DNA of 51,652 bases from Thermoproteota archaeon (GCA_027491415.1 JAOZFH010000002.1:1-51652), one strand, 5' to 3'. Counted from the stretch's first letter, positions 41,933 through 51,652 are shown. A program made the numbers and translations. Notes: generated from the sequence alone by a model not told the origin.

Positions 41933-42583
41933 ATGAGGACCCTGCTGCTGGCCCTGGCCGCGCTGATCCTCCGCTTGCTCACAGGCGTCCAGGTCGTTAG
42001 GCAGGATCATCCGGCTCTTTGTCAAATTCCCAGCCCCCTCCTTCCTCGTGAGGTTCATCGACAACCCGATTAGGCGGAGAGTTCAGCCGCCCGAGGTTGT
42101 GGTCAGCTGGATGGACGTAGGGGAGGGCATGAGAGTTCTAGAGGTGGGACCGGGGTCTGGAACCTTCACTCTCGAGGCGGCGAGGCGAGTGGGGGGTGGC
42201 GGAGCGGTGTTCGCCGTGGACATCCAGGCGTCAGTCCTCTCTATGCTCAATGCCAGGCTGAAGAGAGAGGGAGTCTCTAGCGTCGAGCCGGTGCCTGCGT
42301 CAGCGTACAGCCTCCCCTTTCGGAGCGGAGCGTTCGATAGGGTGTACATGATTGCCGTTCTGGCCGAGATTCCGGACAAAGTGAGGGCACTCCTCAAGGT
42401 TAAGAGGGTCTTGAGAGATGACGGCCTACTTGCGATAGGGGAGATCCTCTTTGACCCCGACTATCCCAGGAGGACGACCGTGATACGCTGGTGCAGAGAG
42501 GCTGGCTTCGAGCTGGTTCGATCCCACGGGGAATTCTACACTACCTCCTCGTGTTCAAGAACTCAAACGGCGGCCCCAACTAG
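41933..42583 (+). pseudogene. Membrane-anchored class I SAM methyltransferase gene with two frameshifts
   Basis: Frame one, from the ATG at 41933, reads MRTLLLALAALILRLLTGVQ, a membrane helix. Near 42000 homology moves one frame on: RLFVKFPAPSFLVRFIDNPI followed by the intact methyltransferase core with motif I VLEVGPGSGTFTLEAARRV, AVFAVDIQ and FDRVYMIAVLAEIP. Near 42540 it returns to the first frame as LHYLLVFKNSNGGPN then TAG at 42581-42583, the expected terminus after AGFELVRSHGEF. Archaeal relatives have exactly this order (helix, FPAP linker, core). The two indels compensate in frame. If only the core is translated (GTG at 42048) it loses its anchor and gains a random tail. Confidence 0.7.
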
Positions 42584-44290: not shown

Positions 44291-44574
44291 CGGCCAGGCA
44301 GAGGTACAGGTCCAAGATGAGGATCTGCTACGACATGCTGAGGGTCATACAGGAGGAGGGCGGAGAGGCAGGCCCCACCCGGATTCTCTACGGCGCGAAC
44401 CTCTCCTACGAGAGGCTCAAGAGGTACCTCGCCGAGCTGATCGAGAAGGGCCTCATTGAGGAGGTGGAGAGAGACGGAAAGAGGATATACAGGCTGACGG
44501 ACAGCGGGCGGATGTTCATCATCCACTTCAGGAAGATGACGGAGTTCGCGAAGGCCTTCGGAATGATCCTATGA
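44287..44574 (+). CDS. Archaeal winged-helix transcriptional regulator (HTH_45-like)
   Basis: 95 residues from the ATG at 44287, which overlaps the stop of the membrane protein gene. RSKMRICYDMLRVIQEEG, GPTRILYGANLSYERLKRYLAELIEKGLIEE and RIYRLTDSGRMFIIHF match the archaeal HTH_45/winged-helix pattern (helix, ANLSYxxLxxYL recognition helix, wing and lTxkG). Probably regulates the adjacent membrane protein or the transporter that follows. Its stop overlaps the start of the decayed transporter (ATGA at 44571). Confidence 0.8.
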   Translation: MTARQRYRSKMRICYDMLRVIQEEGGEAGPTRILYGANLSYERLKRYLAELIEKGLIEEVERDGKRIYRLTDSGRMFIIHFRKMTEFAKAFGMIL

Positions 44575-45375
44575 TCTCGTCGCTAGGCCTCCCGACCGAC
44601 CGCCCAGGTCGCCAGCGAGAGGCGCGCCGCGGTGCGCTGGTCCGAACTCCACGTGGAGGCCAGGGGTACGTCCTGTATCGCGCCCTAGCCTCGCCGGCCC
44701 TGATCACGTGGTACGCGCTCCCCCTCTACCTGATGAAGATGGACTACGGCGTCTTGGAGGTCGGGGCCACGTCCACGGCCGCGACCTGTTGAGCGTTCCG
44801 TTCACCGTTCTGCTGGGCAGGAGGTTCACGAGGGTCGACCTGAGGCTTGGGCTGGCCGCCATAGACCTGATGGAGGCGGTCTCCCTCGCCCTCTTCTCAA
44901 TGGCGTACGGTCCGCTGGCCCCCCTGCTCGTTCTGGCGTGGCAGCTGGTGGACGAGGCATCCAGCGTGCTCTATTCCCTCTATCCTGCCTGCGAGAGGAT
45001 CGTGTACCCGGAGGAGAAGTTGAGGGAGGCCATGCTGTGGCACATGGCGGGGCCCGAGCTGTCGGTGGTCCTCACCTACCCGGCGCTCGGCTACGTCCTG
45101 GGGCGGGTCTGCGGTGCCCCCTCCCGCCTAAGACAGGCCTTCGCGGCCTTTGCAGCTACCAGCTGCTCCTGATACCCTAAACCCTCTTGGCGCTCAGGCC
45201 CGTGGTCGTAGAGGGTAAGAGAGATGGCCGGGGGGGAGGGGGAAGGGGAGGGTGAGGGGGAGCGTGGGGATCTGTGGAGGAGGTATGGAGTCTACGTGGT
45301 CCCCGACATCCTCTTCGTCCTGAGCCGAGGCCTGGCCCGAGCTTGGCCATGGTCTACCTTGATATGGAGAGTTTT
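44571..45375 (+). pseudogene. Degraded major-facilitator transporter gene
   Basis: From an ATG overlapping the regulator's stop, pieces of one MFS-like protein appear in changing frames: ERRAAVRWSELHVEARG (about 44614-44665), GYVLYRALASPALITWYALP (44663 on), SVPFTVLLGRRFTRVDLRLG through GYVLGRVCGAPSRLRQAF (about 44795-45145), YQLLLIP and, after an in-frame TAA at 45178, TLLALRPVVVEGKR, and finally LWRRYGVYVVPDILFVLSRG (about 45272-45340). Each piece is in order and hydrophobic where expected. At least four frame changes and one stop mean it cannot encode a working transporter. The overlap with the regulator shows it was once the third gene of that operon. Confidence 0.65.
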
Positions 45376-45673
45376 GCGCGCGTGACGGTCATAACTTGAC
45401 TGAGGAGGGTTCATCAACTCTGGAGAGCGTGAGCGGCTGGTCGACTGGCGTGCGGGGGCCTCGAAGGTTGCTTCCTGTGTAAATCCCTGCCCTACCCACC
45501 TTTTCGCAATTCAGTGGACCCATGTAGAAGCCTTCGCTGTACAGAGGCCTCGCCCGTTACCAAAGGCAATTTTAGTCTGAAAAGCCCTTGCCGGACTGTG
45601 TAGGGCGGTCGGGACTCGCTCACCATCCGCCAGTAAAACTTCTCCGCAGCCAGAGAGCCCCGGAGACTCGGAA
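45376..45673. other. Gene-free region between decayed transporter and mobile-element operon
   Basis: I see no convincing coding frame here. GGACTCGCTCACCATCCGCC and a TATA-like GTAAAACTT at 45634-45642 precede the first element gene at 45674, with spacing of about 32 bp. The left boundary of the element, and any attachment repeat, should fall in this stretch or in the decayed transporter, but no partner repeat is visible because the right end is outside the window. Confidence 0.4.
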
Positions 45674-45916
45674 GTGCAAACTTTTCACCTGACCGAGGAG
45701 CAGAGGGCAATATTCAGGATAGCGTCTTCGCTGTCCAGGGTAAACGACGCCATAGAGGTGCTGGAGGACTCCCCGGACGAGCTGCTGGCCGCCAGCGAGG
45801 TCCTCAACCTCCCCGAACTCCAAGCCTACGCCTACACCATCCGCCACGTCGTCGGCATACTCTACGCTCTGCGCGAGAGGCTGGACTCGCTGATCACGGG
45901 AGGCGATGGAGAGTGA
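45674..45916 (+). CDS. Small helical unknown protein (element gene 1)
   Basis: 80 residues from a GTG at 45674. Almost all helical: TEEQRAIFRIASSLSRVNDAIEVLEDSP and LQAYAYTIRHVVGILYALRERLDSLI, consistent with a small helical bundle. No family recognised. It opens the one-strand array; TATA-like GTAAAACTT lies about 32 bp upstream. Its stop overlaps the next start (GTGA). Confidence 0.55.
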   Translation: MQTFHLTEEQRAIFRIASSLSRVNDAIEVLEDSPDELLAASEVLNLPELQAYAYTIRHVVGILYALRERLDSLITGGDGE

Positions 45917-46227
45917 GGGCAAGGAGGTACCTCCGCATTCGAATCGGCGGCAGGGAACCCCTGGACGGGGGCGACTTCTGGGGAGTGGACATCTACCGAG
46001 AGGGCAAGAGGCGGTACTGGCTGGTGTACTGGGAGGTCGCAGCTGAGAGGATGCTGGCCGAGGACGAGAGCGGCTGGCTGGAGACTTGGTTCGGCCCGTT
46101 CGTCAGCACCAGCGAGGCCATGAGGTGGTGGGACAGCGTCCCCGAGTACGCTGGCAGGAAGCTCCTGAGCGAGGCCCCTCCACTCCCGAGGGAGGGGAGG
46201 CCCCCGCTGCCCGCCCTGGGGAGGTGA
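45913..46227 (+). CDS. Small alpha/beta unknown protein (element gene 2)
   Basis: 104 residues from a GTG overlapping the previous stop. A Trp/Tyr-rich beta part (FWGVDIYREGKRRYWLVYWEVAAERML) is followed by a helix TSEAMRWWDSVPEYAGRKLL and a Pro-rich tail. Not recognised. Single-domain, cytosolic, acidic-aromatic; the strand-strand-helix order resembles genes 4 and 8 of the array. Confidence 0.55.
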   Translation: MRARRYLRIRIGGREPLDGGDFWGVDIYREGKRRYWLVYWEVAAERMLAEDESGWLETWFGPFVSTSEAMRWWDSVPEYAGRKLLSEAPPLPREGRPPLPALGR

Positions 46228-46231
46228 CCGC

Positions 46232-46498
46232 ATGACCTGCGACAGGGACAGGCTCACCGCGGCCCTCGCGAGCGTCTTGGTCGCGCTGACGACGGCCTCC
46301 TGCCTCACGTGGGACAGCGCGGAGAGGATGCTGGAGGACTGGCTCAATGAGCTGAGGAGGTGCGGCCTGCTGTCGACGCTCGACAGCCACTACGTGATGG
46401 CCTTCGCTCGAGAGGCCCTGCAGAACAGGGACCTAGCCGACACCTGGCCGGAGGTGCTCGCCAAGCTCCTCGAGGAGAGCGAGGGTGATGAGGAATGA
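46232..46498 (+). CDS. Small helical unknown protein (element gene 3)
   Basis: 88 residues from ATG 46232 (GAGGTGACC upstream). Helical throughout, with Cys at 3, 24 and 44 (MTCDRDR, ASCLTWDS, RRCGLL) and an acidic tail SEGDEE. Not recognised. The final ATGA overlaps the next gene. Confidence 0.55.
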   Translation: MTCDRDRLTAALASVLVALTTASCLTWDSAERMLEDWLNELRRCGLLSTLDSHYVMAFAREALQNRDLADTWPEVLAKLLEESEGDEE

Positions 46499-46836
46499 CC
46501 GCCAGGGATGACCTCATCGCGGAACTCACATCCAAGGCCGTGCTGGTCCCCGAGGACTGGACGGACAGGGTGATAGCGCTGCTGGACTTCACCTCAGAGC
46601 TGACCAGCGTGGTCGAGATCGAGGTGAGGTGGGGCTCCTGGCGCATCTTCGCCGACGAGCGCACCCTCTGGGTCGTCCGAGACGACGACCTCAGGGCGGT
46701 CTGGGCCGTAGACCTGGACTCCTTGGCAGGCGCCGACGAGCTGCAGGACTGGATAGACCACCCGGACCAGTTCCTCAGCCAGTGGACCGAGCTGATCGTC
46801 AAACTGATCGGTAGGGAGGCGATGGATGGTGGCTGA
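46495..46836 (+). CDS. Small alpha/beta unknown protein (element gene 4)
   Basis: 113 residues from an ATG overlapping the previous stop. N-terminal helices (ARDDLIAELTSKAVLVPEDW), a beta meander (VVEIEVRWGSWRIFADERTLWVVRDDDLRAVWAVDLD, outline) and a C-terminal helix with DELQDWIDHPDQFLSQW. Strongly acidic. Not recognised. It overlaps the next gene by 11 bp. Confidence 0.55.
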   Translation: MTARDDLIAELTSKAVLVPEDWTDRVIALLDFTSELTSVVEIEVRWGSWRIFADERTLWVVRDDDLRAVWAVDLDSLAGADELQDWIDHPDQFLSQWTELIVKLIGREAMDGG

Positions 46837-47281
46837 CTTCACGAGGGTCGAGCTGGTCCTCTACCTCGACCGCTACGCGTACCCCAAGCACGGGATGCTC
46901 TGGATAGCCAAGGTCCCGGTGAATGGCAGGAGGTGCATCCGCTCCCTCCGCAGGGGGCAGAAGGCGGCGGTTCCCCTGATCTCCTGGGCCGCCGACGGCC
47001 TCAGGAGACTCCTACACAACCTGGTCAGGCGCGGGGGAGCGCGGTTCGTCGACCACCACTGGCACGGCAGGAGGAGCGTGGCGGTGGTGTTCGACGTGCC
47101 CCCCTCCGTCTCACGCGCGCTCGACAGACTCGCCGAGCTGAGGTTCCGCTACATGGGGCTGGATGGGGAGGACAGGATCGAGGCGTGGAGGGCGTACGAC
47201 CGCTTCGTCCGCTCGCTGCTGGACTGCCAGAGCCAGCGAGACTTCGAGGAGTTGCTCGGCCTCGAGGTGACTGCCCGATGA
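46826..47281 (+). CDS. Unknown basic protein (element gene 5)
   Basis: 151 residues from ATG 46826. Basic N-terminal half with many Arg/Lys (GRRCIRSLRRGQKAAVPL, LRRLLHNLVRRGGARF), which could contact nucleic acid, then HHWHGRRSVAVVFDVPPSVSRALDRLAEL and a helical C-terminus. Not recognised. The stop overlaps the start of the zinc-ribbon gene (ATGA). Confidence 0.55.
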   Translation: MVADFTRVELVLYLDRYAYPKHGMLWIAKVPVNGRRCIRSLRRGQKAAVPLISWAADGLRRLLHNLVRRGGARFVDHHWHGRRSVAVVFDVPPSVSRALDRLAELRFRYMGLDGEDRIEAWRAYDRFVRSLLDCQSQRDFEELLGLEVTAR

Positions 47282-47478
47282 GGTGGGGCGGCTCCTACAC
47301 GTACTCGCGCGTCCGCGTTCAGATCCTGCACTGCCCCGTCTGCGGCGCTCAGTACCGCCACTATAACATCACGAAGCGGGAGCTTCTGCGCGAGGCCAAG
47401 GAGGAGCCAGAGCTGATGATCTGCAGGCGCTGCGGGGCCAGGCTCGAATGGGCTGGAGCGAGGTGGGAGCGTGTCTGA
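47278..47478 (+). CDS. Zinc-ribbon protein (element gene 6)
   Basis: 66 residues from the ATG at 47278, overlapping the previous stop (ATGA). Two CxxC knuckles, HCPVCGAQYRHYNIT and MICRRCGARLEWAG, form a standard zinc ribbon with an intervening helix TKRELLREAKEEPEL. Such proteins are common in archaeal viruses and plasmids and often bind DNA or the transcription machinery. It overlaps the next gene by 8 bp. Confidence 0.7.
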   Translation: MRWGGSYTYSRVRVQILHCPVCGAQYRHYNITKRELLREAKEEPELMICRRCGARLEWAGARWERV

Positions 47479-47728
47479 GGAAGAAGTGCCAAACGAGTGG
47501 AACCTGATGCAGCCCCCCGTCCCGGAGGACGCCGACGCCTGCGTCGACCAGTACGAGCCGGAGGATCTCTCGGAGCAGATCTGGGCGATTAACGAGGCCG
47601 CCGAGGAGAGGAACATCCACCCAGTCTGCGCAATGTGCGTCCATGACTGCAAGAAACCCTACTCCTGGTGGAGCTTCCAGATGCCGCCGTGGATGTTCTG
47701 CGAGGACTGGGAGGGAGATGAGGAGTGA
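47471..47728 (+). CDS. Small acidic protein with Cys motif (element gene 7)
   Basis: 85 residues from GTG 47471. An acidic N-terminal half (EDADACVDQYEPEDLSEQIW) is followed by HPVCAMCVHDCKKPYSWW and PPWMFCEDWEGDEE. The C-x2-C-x3-C plus a last Cys could bind zinc or iron-sulfur. Not recognised. The next gene starts on its stop (GTGA). Confidence 0.55.
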   Translation: MSEEEVPNEWNLMQPPVPEDADACVDQYEPEDLSEQIWAINEAAEERNIHPVCAMCVHDCKKPYSWWSFQMPPWMFCEDWEGDEE

Positions 47729-48075
47729 GGTCGGCCAAGCCCATCCCTCCCCCCTCCTTCTCTCCCCCTCCTAGGCGCAGGGTCGGCCCGCCGAGCCTCG
47801 CCGAGCGCCTCTCTTGGCTCGCCAGGGAACTCGGCGACCGCTTCCCCAGCCTGGAGGTCAGACCCTACCTGGACAGGCTCGCGGTCAGGGACCCGGATCG
47901 AGGCGTTGCGGCCATACTCGCGCTCCGCGATGGGGCCTGGGTCGTGATCGACGGCTCGGGGAGGCGCAGCTTCGACGACCCCTACTCCGCCATCAGGGAC
48001 CTCGTCACCAGGCTCGGCCTTCCCATCGACCCGCTGTGGCTGTTCGAGGCCATGTTCCCGGGGGTGGTGAGGTAG
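47725..48075 (+). CDS. Small alpha/beta unknown protein (element gene 8)
   Basis: 116 residues from GTG 47725. A Pro/Arg-rich N-terminal 25 residues, a helix (LAERLSWLARELGDRF), strands LEVRPYLDRLAVRD and AAILALRDGAWVVIDGSGRRSF, then helices DPYSAIRDLVTRLGLPIDPLWLFEAMF. It resembles genes 2 and 4 in helix-strand-strand-helix order. Not recognised. Confidence 0.55.
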   Translation: MRSAKPIPPPSFSPPPRRRVGPPSLAERLSWLARELGDRFPSLEVRPYLDRLAVRDPDRGVAAILALRDGAWVVIDGSGRRSFDDPYSAIRDLVTRLGLPIDPLWLFEAMFPGVVR

Positions 48076-49134
48076 GTGCCAGAGATTCCCAGCGCCTACT
48101 CGAGTCTCAAGCGCGCGGCGCGGGTCTATGAAAACTTGGCTCGGTCCCCGAGATTCCTTAACTACACCACCATCATAGACCTCGCCCTCGAGTCCCCCCG
48201 ACCCATCACTGCGAAGGCCATCCAGAGGGAGTTGGACTTCAGGTTCGTCCAGCTGGCCTACTACTACGCCAATAGGCTCGTGGAGCTTGGCCTCCTCAAG
48301 AAGATAAGGCGCGGGGGCAGGGTCTACTACGCACCCACGGACCTCGCCAGGGACTTCGTTAGGCTTGCCGAATTAAAGGCCTCGGCGGGACCGAGGGGGA
48401 CCGAGCCCTGGCTCCGTCGCAGGCCGCGGACCAATTTCCTCCGCCCACGGACCGAGGGGGACCGAGAGGTTGGGGTCAGGACGAGACTTCACGCCGCCAA
48501 GGCCAAGTTCCGCATAATCCAGCGTGGCTCCGATCTCCCCTTCCCCAGGAAGGTCACGAGGATGAGGAACTGGACCCAGGTGACCTACTTCGTCCCCTTC
48601 GAGTCTGGCCGGGTGTCGGTGCAGGTCAACACGCGCCAGGTCGTGGTGGATGTGCCCAGACCCGACAGGCCCCTGCCGCCGGAGGGGTTCAAGGAGTGGG
48701 TCCTGCGCGTGGTGGAGCACGTCCGGGGAGTGCTCGCCGACTGCGGCTGGGAGCTTGAGTTCGTGGGGACCACGGCCGAGGTCGGCGTGAAGGACCCGGT
48801 AGCCAGCCTCGTCGCCAAGGGGGGCATGGTGATCAGGGACACAGTCGGCGCCATGGACGACTCCCCGGGAGGGGGAGAGGGCGAGTTCGACATCTACGAC
48901 GATCCGCTGAACCCCGAGCGGGTCAAGAGGTACATGCTGACCGTCACCGAGATCCTGCCCCGCGGGTATCAGGAGATACTGCACAGGCTGGAGGGGCTGG
49001 AGAAGAGGGTCGACGTGGTCGTAGCGAGCATGAACAAGATCGCGGGGATCTTCGAGAGGCTGCTGCCGCCAGCACAGTCTCAGAGGCAGGGAGGGACGCC
49101 GCAGCTGCCCGAGTACCCCGACTTCGGCTACTGA
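48076..49134 (+). CDS. Winged-helix DNA-binding protein with C-terminal coiled coil (element gene 9)
   Basis: 352 residues from GTG 48076, directly after the previous stop. Residues about 25-95 form a winged helix: TTIIDLALESPRPITAKAIQ, FRFVQLAYYYANRLVELGLL and RRGGRVYYAPTDLARDF. A basic linker and a beta-rich middle (VTYFVPFESGRVSVQVNTRQ) follow, then a segment DPVASLVAKGGMVIRDTVGA and MDDSPGGGEGEFDIYDD, which I have the impression occurs in other archaeal virus/plasmid DNA-binding proteins. The C-terminus is a coiled coil (HRLEGLEKRVDVVVASMNKI). The largest gene of the array; it may be a regulator, initiator or partition-type protein. Confidence 0.65.
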   Translation: MPEIPSAYSSLKRAARVYENLARSPRFLNYTTIIDLALESPRPITAKAIQRELDFRFVQLAYYYANRLVELGLLKKIRRGGRVYYAPTDLARDFVRLAELKASAGPRGTEPWLRRRPRTNFLRPRTEGDREVGVRTRLHAAKAKFRIIQRGSDLPFPRKVTRMRNWTQVTYFVPFESGRVSVQVNTRQVVVDVPRPDRPLPPEGFKEWVLRVVEHVRGVLADCGWELEFVGTTAEVGVKDPVASLVAKGGMVIRDTVGAMDDSPGGGEGEFDIYDDPLNPERVKRYMLTVTEILPRGYQEILHRLEGLEKRVDVVVASMNKIAGIFERLLPPAQSQRQGGTPQLPEYPDFGY

Positions 49135-49144
49135 GGTGGTGGCC

Positions 49145-49444
49145 ATGGTGGCCATGGTCCGCAGGAACCCGAGGGGGTATGATGACATCATAGAGATCCT
49201 GCTTCAGCTCGGCATCAGGAGCCGCGAGCGAAGGAGAAAGATGGCGTACATGATCGAGTACCTCAGTCAGATTCACGGCAACATCCTCTCGAAGGACTTC
49301 GAGGCAATCGCTGACTTGGCGCTGAGGCAGGGCTACGACCTAAAGTCCGTGGCTGACCTACTTCGGGCCGTCGCAGCCCTGAGATGTGGCAGGCTTCCAC
49401 GAAGGGTCTCCGTGGACTTCGGGAAGGTGAGGGTCCAGTGGTAG
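49145..49444 (+). CDS. Small basic helical protein (element gene 10)
   Basis: 99 residues from ATG 49145; another ATG is at 49154 because GTGGCCATG is duplicated in tandem at the start. GAGGTGG at 49134-49140 favours 49145. Helical and basic: YDDIIEILLQLGIRSRERRR, YMIEYLSQIHGN, FEAIADLALRQGYDLKSVAD. Not recognised; possibly a DNA-binding helical protein. The stop overlaps the next gene's GTG region. Confidence 0.55.
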   Translation: MVAMVRRNPRGYDDIIEILLQLGIRSRERRRKMAYMIEYLSQIHGNILSKDFEAIADLALRQGYDLKSVADLLRAVAALRCGRLPRRVSVDFGKVRVQW

Positions 49445-49719
49445 CTGCCTTCACACCCCTGACCCAGTACCTCGACGATCCTAGAGAGGTATTCAAGCTC
49501 AGAGAGGAGCAGGAGAGGCGCAAGACCGTAAAGGAGAAGATCCTAGAGATACTCCTCGACGGGAAGCCGCACAGCAATAGGGACTTGGTGAAGGTCACAC
49601 ACAGGTTTAGCGCCAGAATCAAGGACCTCCGAGATGAGGGCTGGATCATTCTCTCTTGGCGCGACGAGGAGGACCCCGCCACCTGGTGGTACCAGCTAGT
49701 GGGGAGGGATTCAAAGTGA
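49438..49719 (+). CDS. Small winged-helix protein (element gene 11)
   Basis: 93 residues from GTG 49438 overlapping the previous stop. After a polar lead, VKEKILEILLDGKPHSNRDLVKVTHRFSARIKDLRDEGWIILSWRDEEDPATWWYQLV (outline, residues about 33-90) matches the phage-type winged helix with the recognition helix in HRFSARIKDLRDEG and a Trp-rich wing. Probably a transcriptional regulator of the element. The stop overlaps the next start (GTGA). Confidence 0.7.
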   Translation: MVAAFTPLTQYLDDPREVFKLREEQERRKTVKEKILEILLDGKPHSNRDLVKVTHRFSARIKDLRDEGWIILSWRDEEDPATWWYQLVGRDSK

Positions 49720-50015
49720 ACTACGTCGTAGTCTTCGAGACCGTCAGGACAGAGGAGGAGATCGCTGAGATCTGCGCCCGGAACTTCCCCGACGCCAGGT
49801 GCCTCCGCTGTCCGATGTTCAACACTCCCCAGTGCCCAGCAGAGTTCGTCAACAGGTACTGCCGCACCTGCAGGCACTCTAGGCCCGTCAGCTTCGTCCA
49901 CCCTCTGTTCTCCTCCTCTGAGGACTGCCTATGGTGCGTCAAGAGGGGCAGGGTCGTCAGGCCAGATGACATTTGCCTAGGCTGGCAGAGGAGGGAGGTG
50001 ATGGTCCGTGGTTAG
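49716..50015 (+). CDS. Nine-cysteine protein immediately upstream of the radical SAM gene (element gene 12)
   Basis: 99 residues from GTG 49716, which overlaps the previous stop and is preferred over an upstream frame start at 49656. After VVVFETVRTEEEIAEICARN, nine cysteines occur as IC, RCLRC, QC, YCRTC, DCLWC and IC, spaced like two zinc or iron-sulfur sites. No family was recognised. Eight bases overlap the radical SAM gene, so the two are made together; a role as cluster-binding or substrate-carrying partner of that enzyme is inference. Confidence 0.6.
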   Translation: MNYVVVFETVRTEEEIAEICARNFPDARCLRCPMFNTPQCPAEFVNRYCRTCRHSRPVSFVHPLFSSSEDCLWCVKRGRVVRPDDICLGWQRREVMVRG

Positions 50016-50796
50016 GATAACCCCGAGCAGGATCGAGTACTTGGCCCACGGCCTGAACTTCGCCAGCTTCTGCACATCGTCCTGCGTCTACTGCTACATG
50101 AACCGCTTCCGCAGGGTGAATCTCGGGCGCGGGAAGCCAGTCGACGAGGACTTAGAGGAACTCGCCAGGCAGCTGGAAACCTTCACGCCCAAGGGGGACA
50201 TCATGATGTCCACGTCCAACGACCCCTTCACGGCTGGCTACTCCCTGGCCAACAGGATTCTCTCCCTTGTGGTCTCAAAGCTCGACGATCTGCGCTCGAG
50301 GGCTGGCGCGGACTTCAACCTCCGGGTTCTGAGCAAGAAGGGGGTCTGGAGGAACCCCATCACCCGCGAGCCCCTCCCCAACCACTCCCTCCTTCTCTTC
50401 GGCCAGACCGTGACCACGCTGAACGACTCCGTGCGCCAGGTCCTGGAGCCCGGCGCCGCGCCAGTCGACGGGAGGATAGAGGCCCTTCGGCAGGCTAGGC
50501 AGGCTGGCTTCCGGGTCTGGCTCAGCGTCGAGCCCGTCTTCGAGGGCATGGACCTCCTGAGGTTGTGCGAGTTGGTGGAGCCTGAGGAGGTCTGGGTCGG
50601 GAAGCTGAACCACTACTCGAGCCAGTTCGCCCTACCGCCTGAGGAGATCCACAGGCAGGTGGAGGAGGCTAGGGCCTCCGGATTCGTGGTGAGGGAGAAG
50701 CGGGAACTCAGGGAGGCATTAAAGATCGAGGAGGAGCGAAAACTCGTCGGTCTAGAGACGTACCTAGTGGAGGCTGGAGCCCAATGCCGGTCCTGA
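50008..50796 (+). CDS. Small radical SAM protein, SPL/DUF5131-like (element gene 13)
   Basis: 262 residues from GTG 50008. The cluster motif CTSSCVYCY (C-x3-C-x2-C) lies near residues 22-30 in LNFASFCTSSCVYCYMNRF, followed by IMMSTSNDPFTAGY, RVLSKKGVW, LLFGQTVTTLND and RVWLSVEPVFEGMDLL, the order seen in SPL-like and phage DUF5131 proteins. The C-terminal part is helical. It carries one more Cys near the end and no extra cluster motif. Substrate unknown. A second, larger SPL-like enzyme lies at 42716-43621 outside the element. It overlaps the next gene by 13 bp. Confidence 0.8.
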   Translation: MVRITPSRIEYLAHGLNFASFCTSSCVYCYMNRFRRVNLGRGKPVDEDLEELARQLETFTPKGDIMMSTSNDPFTAGYSLANRILSLVVSKLDDLRSRAGADFNLRVLSKKGVWRNPITREPLPNHSLLLFGQTVTTLNDSVRQVLEPGAAPVDGRIEALRQARQAGFRVWLSVEPVFEGMDLLRLCELVEPEEVWVGKLNHYSSQFALPPEEIHRQVEEARASGFVVREKRELREALKIEEERKLVGLETYLVEAGAQCRS

Positions 50797-51236
50797 GCGT
50801 CAAGGTCTCCGACGACTACGCCAAGAGGGTCAGGGAGTTCGCCAAGTCCAGGGGTATATCCGTCGCCAAGCTGATCAGAGAGGCCCTCGACTCCTATATG
50901 GCTGAGCAGGCCAACTCCCACGAGTCTACCCAGGTAGACCTGACGCAGAGGAGCGATCCCGTTCTCTTGCTCCTCAGCTACGCTTTGGCTCAGCTGGCGA
51001 GTGCGAGAGGGGTAGACCTCCCCAGGGTTCCCGTGGTCGACCCATCGACCCTGCTGGGGCGGGCCGCAGTCGGGGAGGCTCCTTCTTTCGCCTCAGGTGG
51101 GAAGCCTAAGGCGCCTCGGGAGCCCCTTCTGCCCCAGCCTGATCCTGGCCAGGTGTCCATGGACCTCATCGAGGAGTTCGCCCGGGACAACCCCTGGGCA
51201 GAGGTCCTATCAAGGAAAGGAGGCGGGAAGAGTTGA
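50784..51236 (+). CDS. Ribbon-helix-helix DNA-binding protein (element gene 14)
   Basis: 150 residues from ATG 50784. The N-terminal 45 residues form a classical RHH: VLSVKVSDDYAKRVREFA and GISVAKLIREALDSYMAEQ. A longer, less ordered Pro/Ser-rich region follows, then a short helix MDLIEEFARDNPWAEVL. Probably the repressor for the recombinase or the operon; its own end overlaps the recombinase TTG (TTGA) and abuts an 18-bp palindrome. Confidence 0.75.
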   Translation: MPVLSVKVSDDYAKRVREFAKSRGISVAKLIREALDSYMAEQANSHESTQVDLTQRSDPVLLLLSYALAQLASARGVDLPRVPVVDPSTLLGRAAVGEAPSFASGGKPKAPREPLLPQPDPGQVSMDLIEEFARDNPWAEVLSRKGGGKS

Positions 51237-51652
51237 CTGTTACGCGCGTAACAGATCTGGAGGCCTTCAGATCTTGGCTGTACGCCAGCAACCTCAGGCC
51301 CGGGACGGTCAAGAAGTACCTAATGTGGGTAAAGCGCTGGCTAGAGAGTGGCAAATCTGCGGTGGACTTCTTAGCGAGTATAGAGAACCCACGCACCAGG
51401 CAGGTGGCGAGGTCGGCGATAACTAGGTACGCTAGATACGCCAGCCTGCGCGTGGAACTTCCATCTGTCAGAACCCCGAAGAGACGCCTCCCACGCTATC
51501 TAGAACCCGATGAGGTACAGAAGCTGATTGCTGCGGCGGACAGCGACCTCCAGAGGCTCGCTATGGGACTTATGTACTACGCTGGCCTGCGGGTGTCGGA
51601 GGCCTGCTCACTACGGTGGGATGATGTGGACTTGGAGACCTCGGCCCTGAGG
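51233..51652 (+). CDS. Tyrosine recombinase/integrase (3' end outside window)
   Basis: 140 codons visible from a TTG at 51233 that overlaps the RHH gene's stop. SAM-like core-binding domain: LEAFRSWLYASNLRPGTVKK, YLMWVKRWLE and RQVARSAITRYARYASL. The catalytic domain begins with LPRYLEPDEVQKLIAAADSD and MYYAGLRVSEACSLRWDDVD, where Arg in AGLRVSEA is catalytic residue RI. The remaining R, H and Tyr motifs lie beyond the window. It resembles XerA-type and archaeal-virus integrases. Integration site and partner repeats cannot be seen. Confidence 0.9.
   Translation, partial: MTVTRVTDLEAFRSWLYASNLRPGTVKKYLMWVKRWLESGKSAVDFLASIENPRTRQVARSAITRYARYASLRVELPSVRTPKRRLPRYLEPDEVQKLIAAADSDLQRLAMGLMYYAGLRVSEACSLRWDDVDLETSALR
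51237..51254. repeat. 18-bp perfect palindrome at the integrase start
   Basis: CTGTTACGCGCGTAACAG is its own reverse complement and begins 4 bp after the first base of the integrase TTG codon, covering codons 2-7. It is a good size for a dimeric operator, such as one bound by the RHH protein encoded just upstream, or for a recombinase core site. Confidence 0.65.

Follow-up and report, generated by a model that had tools for sequence, protein, structure and literature searches.

The right end of a korarchaeal contig (GCA_027491415.1, JAOZFH010000002.1:1–51652; 51,652 nucleotides, here called the window) is an integrated mobile element with defined ends, beginning at a boundary at positions 45602–45618. 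We consider it quite probable that this is a small, cryptic, plasmid-like integrative element of the korarchaeon, inserted by a recombinase at the 3' end of a C/D-box small RNA (sRNA) gene; its total size is most likely about 7 kb. A preliminary description of the region had proposed that it could be a new type of archaeal integrated virus or plasmid, or a satellite relying on a helper. Two copies of the attachment (att) site, together with an unoccupied site in a sister genome, bear out the integrated mobile element, but not the virus, for which the assembled part contains no capsid or packaging gene. The designation as a new type is fair with regard to gene content; the sRNA target, which is more unusual, lies outside the region that this description could draw on.

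Boundaries and Attachment Sites

The window is the entire contig C32 of the host assembly (G000; 1.78 Mb, 63 contigs). The left boundary of the element is a 17-bp core on the plus strand (attL: AGGGCGGTCGGGACTCG, 45602–45618). An identical core (attR) lies on contig C9 at 42246–42262 (L041:6247–6263), and the sister genome G001 contains a single, identical core at an empty site (L030:4259–4275). G001 aligns with the window at about 94% identity up to exactly position 45618 and diverges thereafter; beyond the empty-site junction, G001 continues with the sequence that is found on contig C9 in G000. At both junctions, the empty site is matched by the 40 nt on the outer side but not by the 40 nt on the inner side. 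This clean empty site implies that the element was inserted or lost after the split between G000 and G001. A search for the core pattern returned two matches in G000, two in a genome from another korarchaeal genus (G013), and a single match in each of a further seven korarchaeal genomes; the control gave none. The element found in another korarchaeal genome, G002, contains no copy.

The preliminary description had suggested looking for attachment repeats and a target gene, and both are present: the 17-bp repeats flank the element, they coincide with a C/D-box sRNA gene, and the element continues on C9. Conserved gene order without boundaries, which would have spoken against an element, is not what we observe, because homology to the sister ends at 45618. 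Of the limits originally assigned, the right one (51652) stands as the contig end, and the left one (45674) moves to the attL core. Contig C9 contains 539 bp of the element with one 87-aa gene and then ends, so that the element extends over about 6.05 kb on C32, 0.54 kb on C9, and an unassembled gap. No contig of the assembly was found to contain the sequence of this gap, which includes the recombinase C-terminus, and no second copy of the exact element is known. AttL is located in noncoding DNA, 5.6 kb from the start of the recombinase gene, and attR lies beyond a separate small gene. We can therefore reject an SSV-type element, in which the att site lies within a suicidal integrase gene whose halves end up at the two ends of the element. 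On the chromosomal side, the window contains a membrane-transporter-like gene (44571–45390) that is frameshifted here and partly open in the sister genome.

The Target RNA Gene

Judging by conserved sequence elements, the element integrates into a conserved C/D-box guide sRNA gene, at its 3' end, and this gene is whole again at attR. The best Rfam match at the empty site is sR14 on the minus strand (window orientation, E = 9e-4), with a score of 22 bits that falls under the gathering cut-off of 38. Boxes C, D', C', and D and two guides are kept in the aligned copies from seven korarchaeal genomes, and one more distant archaeon keeps the boxes and the first guide. The guide-D'-C' pattern was detected in 8 of 31 genomes, and the reversed control in none. 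Since the 17-bp core constitutes the 3' part of the sRNA gene, attR on C9 retains an intact sRNA gene, at about 42203–42262. The first guide presumably fits the general 5' end of archaeal 16S rRNA; a search for rRNA targets in three genomes, with one pattern per guide and a T in the 16S pattern where C occurs in archaea as well, returned no match. A tRNA target was rejected, because neither the window nor the vicinity of the empty site contains a tRNA.

The Rfam score below cut-off and the unmatched guide patterns would fit an RNA that does not function as a C/D sRNA, in which case the element would merely occupy an intergenic site. We regard this as highly improbable, because the boxes and both guides are conserved between two korarchaeal genera despite different neighboring genes. 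Furthermore, the terminal stems differ in sequence and yet pair (GGGCGG/CCGCCC here, GGGGG/CCCCC in genus g3, and TGCC/GGCA in the more distant archaeon).

A Second Element at the Same sRNA Gene

The sRNA gene in G013 adjoins succinate dehydrogenase genes. Here, an RHH-like gene and a gene for a 392-aa recombinase come after the end of the sRNA, with the same target and the same side as in G000, and the assembled part of this element stops at the end of its contig. A second G013 contig shares 119 bp that comprise flank and sRNA and then proceeds into uninterrupted chromosome, as in G015, G016, G018, and G019. An assembler would produce two such contigs from a population with both occupied and empty sites; several strains mixed in the metagenome-assembled genome (MAG) would look alike. 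The sequence CCCTTATAAAGGGC (13 bp + 1) is present in both elements about 20 bp inside the core and nowhere else in the searched sequence. In both cases a small gene that matches the same PHROG lies between core and recombinase. Unlike these shared features, the recombinases are only distantly related (34 of 158 residues identical in the aligned part). Elements with different recombinases thus use one sRNA gene in two korarchaeal genera.

Recombinase and Proposed Integration Mechanism

Gene 15 (51233–51652, plus strand, TTG start) encodes the first 140 residues of a tyrosine recombinase and ends with the contig. The match to Pfam Phage_integrase (E = 1e-11) is limited by the contig end to 54 of the 172 model positions. 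In the assembly the protein lacks the C-terminus with most of the catalytic residues, and no continuation was found elsewhere in G000. If this gene were the chromosomal XerA, the case for an element would have been weakened, as the preliminary description had pointed out. This identity was rejected: a separate full-length XerA-like gene is located on contig C3 and has a counterpart in the sister genome. Gene 15 is identical to this protein at 54 of 160 positions in the aligned part, and scores 57.9 against an XerA cut-off of 220, gene 15 being incomplete. Near-duplicate stretches around the XerA-like gene on C3 and C37 (L046 and L077) are probably MAG strain variants. A third, more divergent tyrosine recombinase near the end of contig C41 (78288–78782) possibly belongs to a second integrated element.

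We propose that the tyrosine recombinase would join the 17-bp core of a free circle to the same 17 bp in the 3' part of the sRNA gene, a segment that comprises the end of the second guide, box D, and the terminal stem. As with tRNA-targeting integrases, attR would then contain the entire sRNA gene, and attL no more than a copy of the core. The product of gene 15 is presumably the acting enzyme, and the gap may contain little beyond its C-terminus. We think that the gap is small because in G013, too, the core and the recombinase are separated by just a related small gene.

Comparison with Known Integration Sites

This arrangement resembles that of tRNA-targeting, non-split archaeal integrases (PMC8371274) in that the core is located at the 3' terminus of a gene for a small structural RNA, which integration restores, and in that the att sites lie outside the recombinase gene, as far as assembled. 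In contrast, the target here is an sRNA and not a tRNA. Badel et al. (2021, PMC8371274) list tRNA, intergenic, and protein-gene sites in archaea and never mention sRNA genes. Open full-text literature, with subscription-only papers outside the search, contained no description of a C/D sRNA integration site, and none of a korarchaeal virus or plasmid.

Since two different elements in two genera share one sRNA site, guide-RNA genes appear to be docking sites for archaeal mobile DNA that have so far gone undescribed. We lean toward the broader view that C/D-box guide-RNA genes are a regular archaeal integration hotspot for the same reason as tRNA genes, and that korarchaeal elements have converged on one of them. 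The reason would be that these genes encode short, conserved, structured RNAs whose 3' end is restored upon integration. A guide-sRNA target in two genera widens the rule of tRNA, intergenic, and protein-gene sites, and it makes finding elements simple, by comparing the 3' flanks of C/D sRNA genes. Korarchaea also gain well-bounded mobile elements with precise att sites that are testable in vitro.

Gene Content

The compact, one-strand run of genes ending in a tyrosine recombinase was described correctly at the outset: 15 plus-strand ORFs account for 5974 of the 5979 bases of 45674–51652 and form an operon in which most neighbors overlap by 4–13 bp at junctions of the ATGA or GTGA type. Gene 1 (45674–45916, 80 aa, GTG start) has coding-like codon GC and no family match. 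No family could be assigned to gene 2 (45913–46227, 104 aa, 4-bp overlap with gene 1), gene 3 (46232–46498, 88 aa), gene 4 (46495–46836, 113 aa), gene 5 (46826–47281, 151 aa), gene 8 (47725–48075, 116 aa), gene 10 (49136–49444, 102 aa), or gene 7 (47471–47728, 85 aa), the product of which is acidic and contains cysteine. Gene 12 (49716–50015, 99 aa) is also without a family match; its Cys-rich product with several CxxC-type pairs is likely metal-binding. Searches of genes 1–5, 7, 8, 10, and 12 against Pfam, PHROGs, and PADLOC returned nothing useful, and a PADLOC defense-gene search of the element nothing worth naming.

Among the domains named in the preliminary description, the ribbon-helix-helix (RHH), radical SAM, recombinase, and zinc-ribbon assignments hold. 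Gene 13 (50008–50796) encodes a 262-aa radical SAM enzyme with the Cys motif FCTSSCVYC (Pfam Radical_SAM, E = 2.7e-10), and gene 14 (50784–51236) a 150-aa RHH protein (Pfam RHH_1, E = 2.8e-7) with the C-terminal peptide FARDNPWAEVLSRK. The zinc-ribbon protein of gene 6 (47278–47478, 66 aa) contains paired CxxC motifs and has Pfam matches to many further ribbons, with Zn_ribbon_LysW (E = 1.3e-5) remaining below cut-off. For the two winged helices the sequence evidence is weak; the one in gene 9 is supported by its predicted fold. Gene 11 (49438–49719, 93 aa) is a probable winged-helix protein (PHROG 35777, E = 0.002; Pfam HTH_24, E = 0.03). The starts of genes 11 and 12 are most likely at 49438 and 49716.

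The tetranucleotide use of the element (0.176) is outside the range of same-size chromosomal windows (maximum 0.155). The codon-position GC of its genes is like that of chromosomal genes (GC3 0.69–0.91, chromosomal mean 0.86). This latter observation bears on the possibility that the region is a degraded remnant or a domesticated island that has lost mobility. The single copy and the incomplete recombinase in the assembly would agree with such decay. However, every complete gene is open with chromosomal-type codon use, the attL and attR cores are identical, and the empty site in the sister is clean, which makes this explanation improbable.

The assembled part of the element contains no recognized replication gene, and a rolling-circle Rep of the Rep-Arvir type (DUF7845, PMC13107129) has no Pfam match in the element. 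Searches by family and for ATPase homologues detected no capsid, packaging, or conjugation gene in the assembled 6.6 kb.

Gene 9 and Its Repeats

Gene 9 (48076–49134) encodes 352 residues that comprise an N-terminal winged helix, a central alpha/beta domain, and a C-terminal coil. The AlphaFold model contains two fairly confident domains at an overall pLDDT of 55. Sequence support for the winged helix is weak, and the predicted fold and its matches to winged-helix structures in the PDB support it. The best Foldseek match across the entire length of the model, which is weak overall, is a protein from an uncultured archaeal virus (E = 4e-10). Based on this model, the gene 9 product is a candidate replication, partition, or regulatory protein. 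Homology to a 306-aa winged-helix protein from G002 was set aside, as the layout is alike and the sequence similarity is not significant. Gene 9 itself contains two perfect 18-bp direct repeats (GGACCGAGGGGGACCGAG, plus strand, 48388–48466, 61 bp start to start), and within 825 kb of searched sequence this 18-mer is confined to gene 9. These putative protein-binding or origin repeats might be sites on which gene 9 acts within its own gene. The operon most likely carries regulators in the form of RHH and winged-helix proteins. Together with gene 9 and the repeats, these may act in replication or copy control when the element is free.

Related Mobile Elements

A relative in terms of cargo is an element of about 28 kb in G002 (contig C7, QMVZ01000007.1, Guaymas Basin korarchaeon B15_G15). 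Gene 13 is 49% identical to the radical SAM protein of this element, and gene 14 has an RHH homologue there (shuffle z 18) with the same C-terminal peptide. The two genes are close together in G002 as well, and the element includes a recombinase. Unlike the element in the window, the G002 element contains a VirB4/HerA-like ATPase and large surface proteins, lacks the 17-bp core, and has no small genes recognizably in common. The VirB4/HerA fold of the ATPase (L031/L042 on G002:C7) comes from a low-confidence model, and homologues are present in four other korarchaeal genomes (G006:C43; G004:C4, 18.7–20.3 kb; G018:C19; G008:C178). Elements of this family combine the 550–590-aa ATPase with an adjoining protein of about 200 aa and large membrane-anchored Ig-like proteins, and are possibly an undescribed virus or conjugative family.

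The G002 element raises the question as to whether the window contains the visible part of a larger provirus, with capsid and packaging genes in the gap between C32 and C9, which may be of any size. A relative of about 28 kb that shares the radical SAM and RHH genes and also has this ATPase and large membrane-anchored Ig-like proteins would be consistent with this idea, as would the fold match of gene 9 to an archaeal virus protein and a distant homologue of gene 13 in the bicaudavirus ATV. In contrast, the G002-type ATPase is absent from G000, a 96% complete genome, further G002 proteins have no homologue in the searched parts of the G000 contigs, and in G013 the small gene adjoins the recombinase and leaves no room for a module. 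We consider a provirus unlikely. A satellite that depends on a G002-type korarchaeal element or virus for transfer appears less likely still. Two neighboring genes are common to both elements and transfer genes are absent from the assembled part, but no helper was found in the assembly of this genome, neither a packaging nor a transfer signal was found in common, and the two common genes may equally be ordinary regulatory cargo. A plasmid-like element devoid of transfer machinery, which we favor, may rely on a helper for its movement or move as DNA.

The cryptic integrated elements described in Thaumarchaeota, which range from 2.6 to 98 kb (Krupovic et al. 2019, PMC6563490), are similar in having an integrase (here incomplete in the assembly), direct-repeat att sites, and mostly unknown genes with some DNA-binding proteins, and, as far as the present element is assembled, in lacking capsid and conjugation genes. 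They differ from the present case with its korarchaeal host, C/D-box sRNA target, and radical SAM cargo; neither sRNA targets nor radical SAM proteins come up in the main text of that report. A further, more distantly related radical SAM gene is located in a mobile region of another archaeon (L109 7175–13735, G226:C27), beside genes for a D5-like helicase, a cytosine methyltransferase, and an integrase. Given its presence in the G002 element, the G226 region, and ATV, this type of radical SAM protein recurs in archaeal mobile DNA. The searched viral contigs contained no relative of gene 9, the radical SAM protein, the ATPase family, or the att motif, and the plasmid records no radical SAM relative.

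Finally, the peptide LxEEFARDNPWxxVLxxK occurs in the RHH protein of the element (window 51155–51220), in the G002 RHH protein, and in a chromosomal 354-aa coiled-coil protein (L043 10327–11391, minus strand) that adjoins rpoD and ribosomal genes. This common peptide suggests that the three proteins may have one shared host binding partner.
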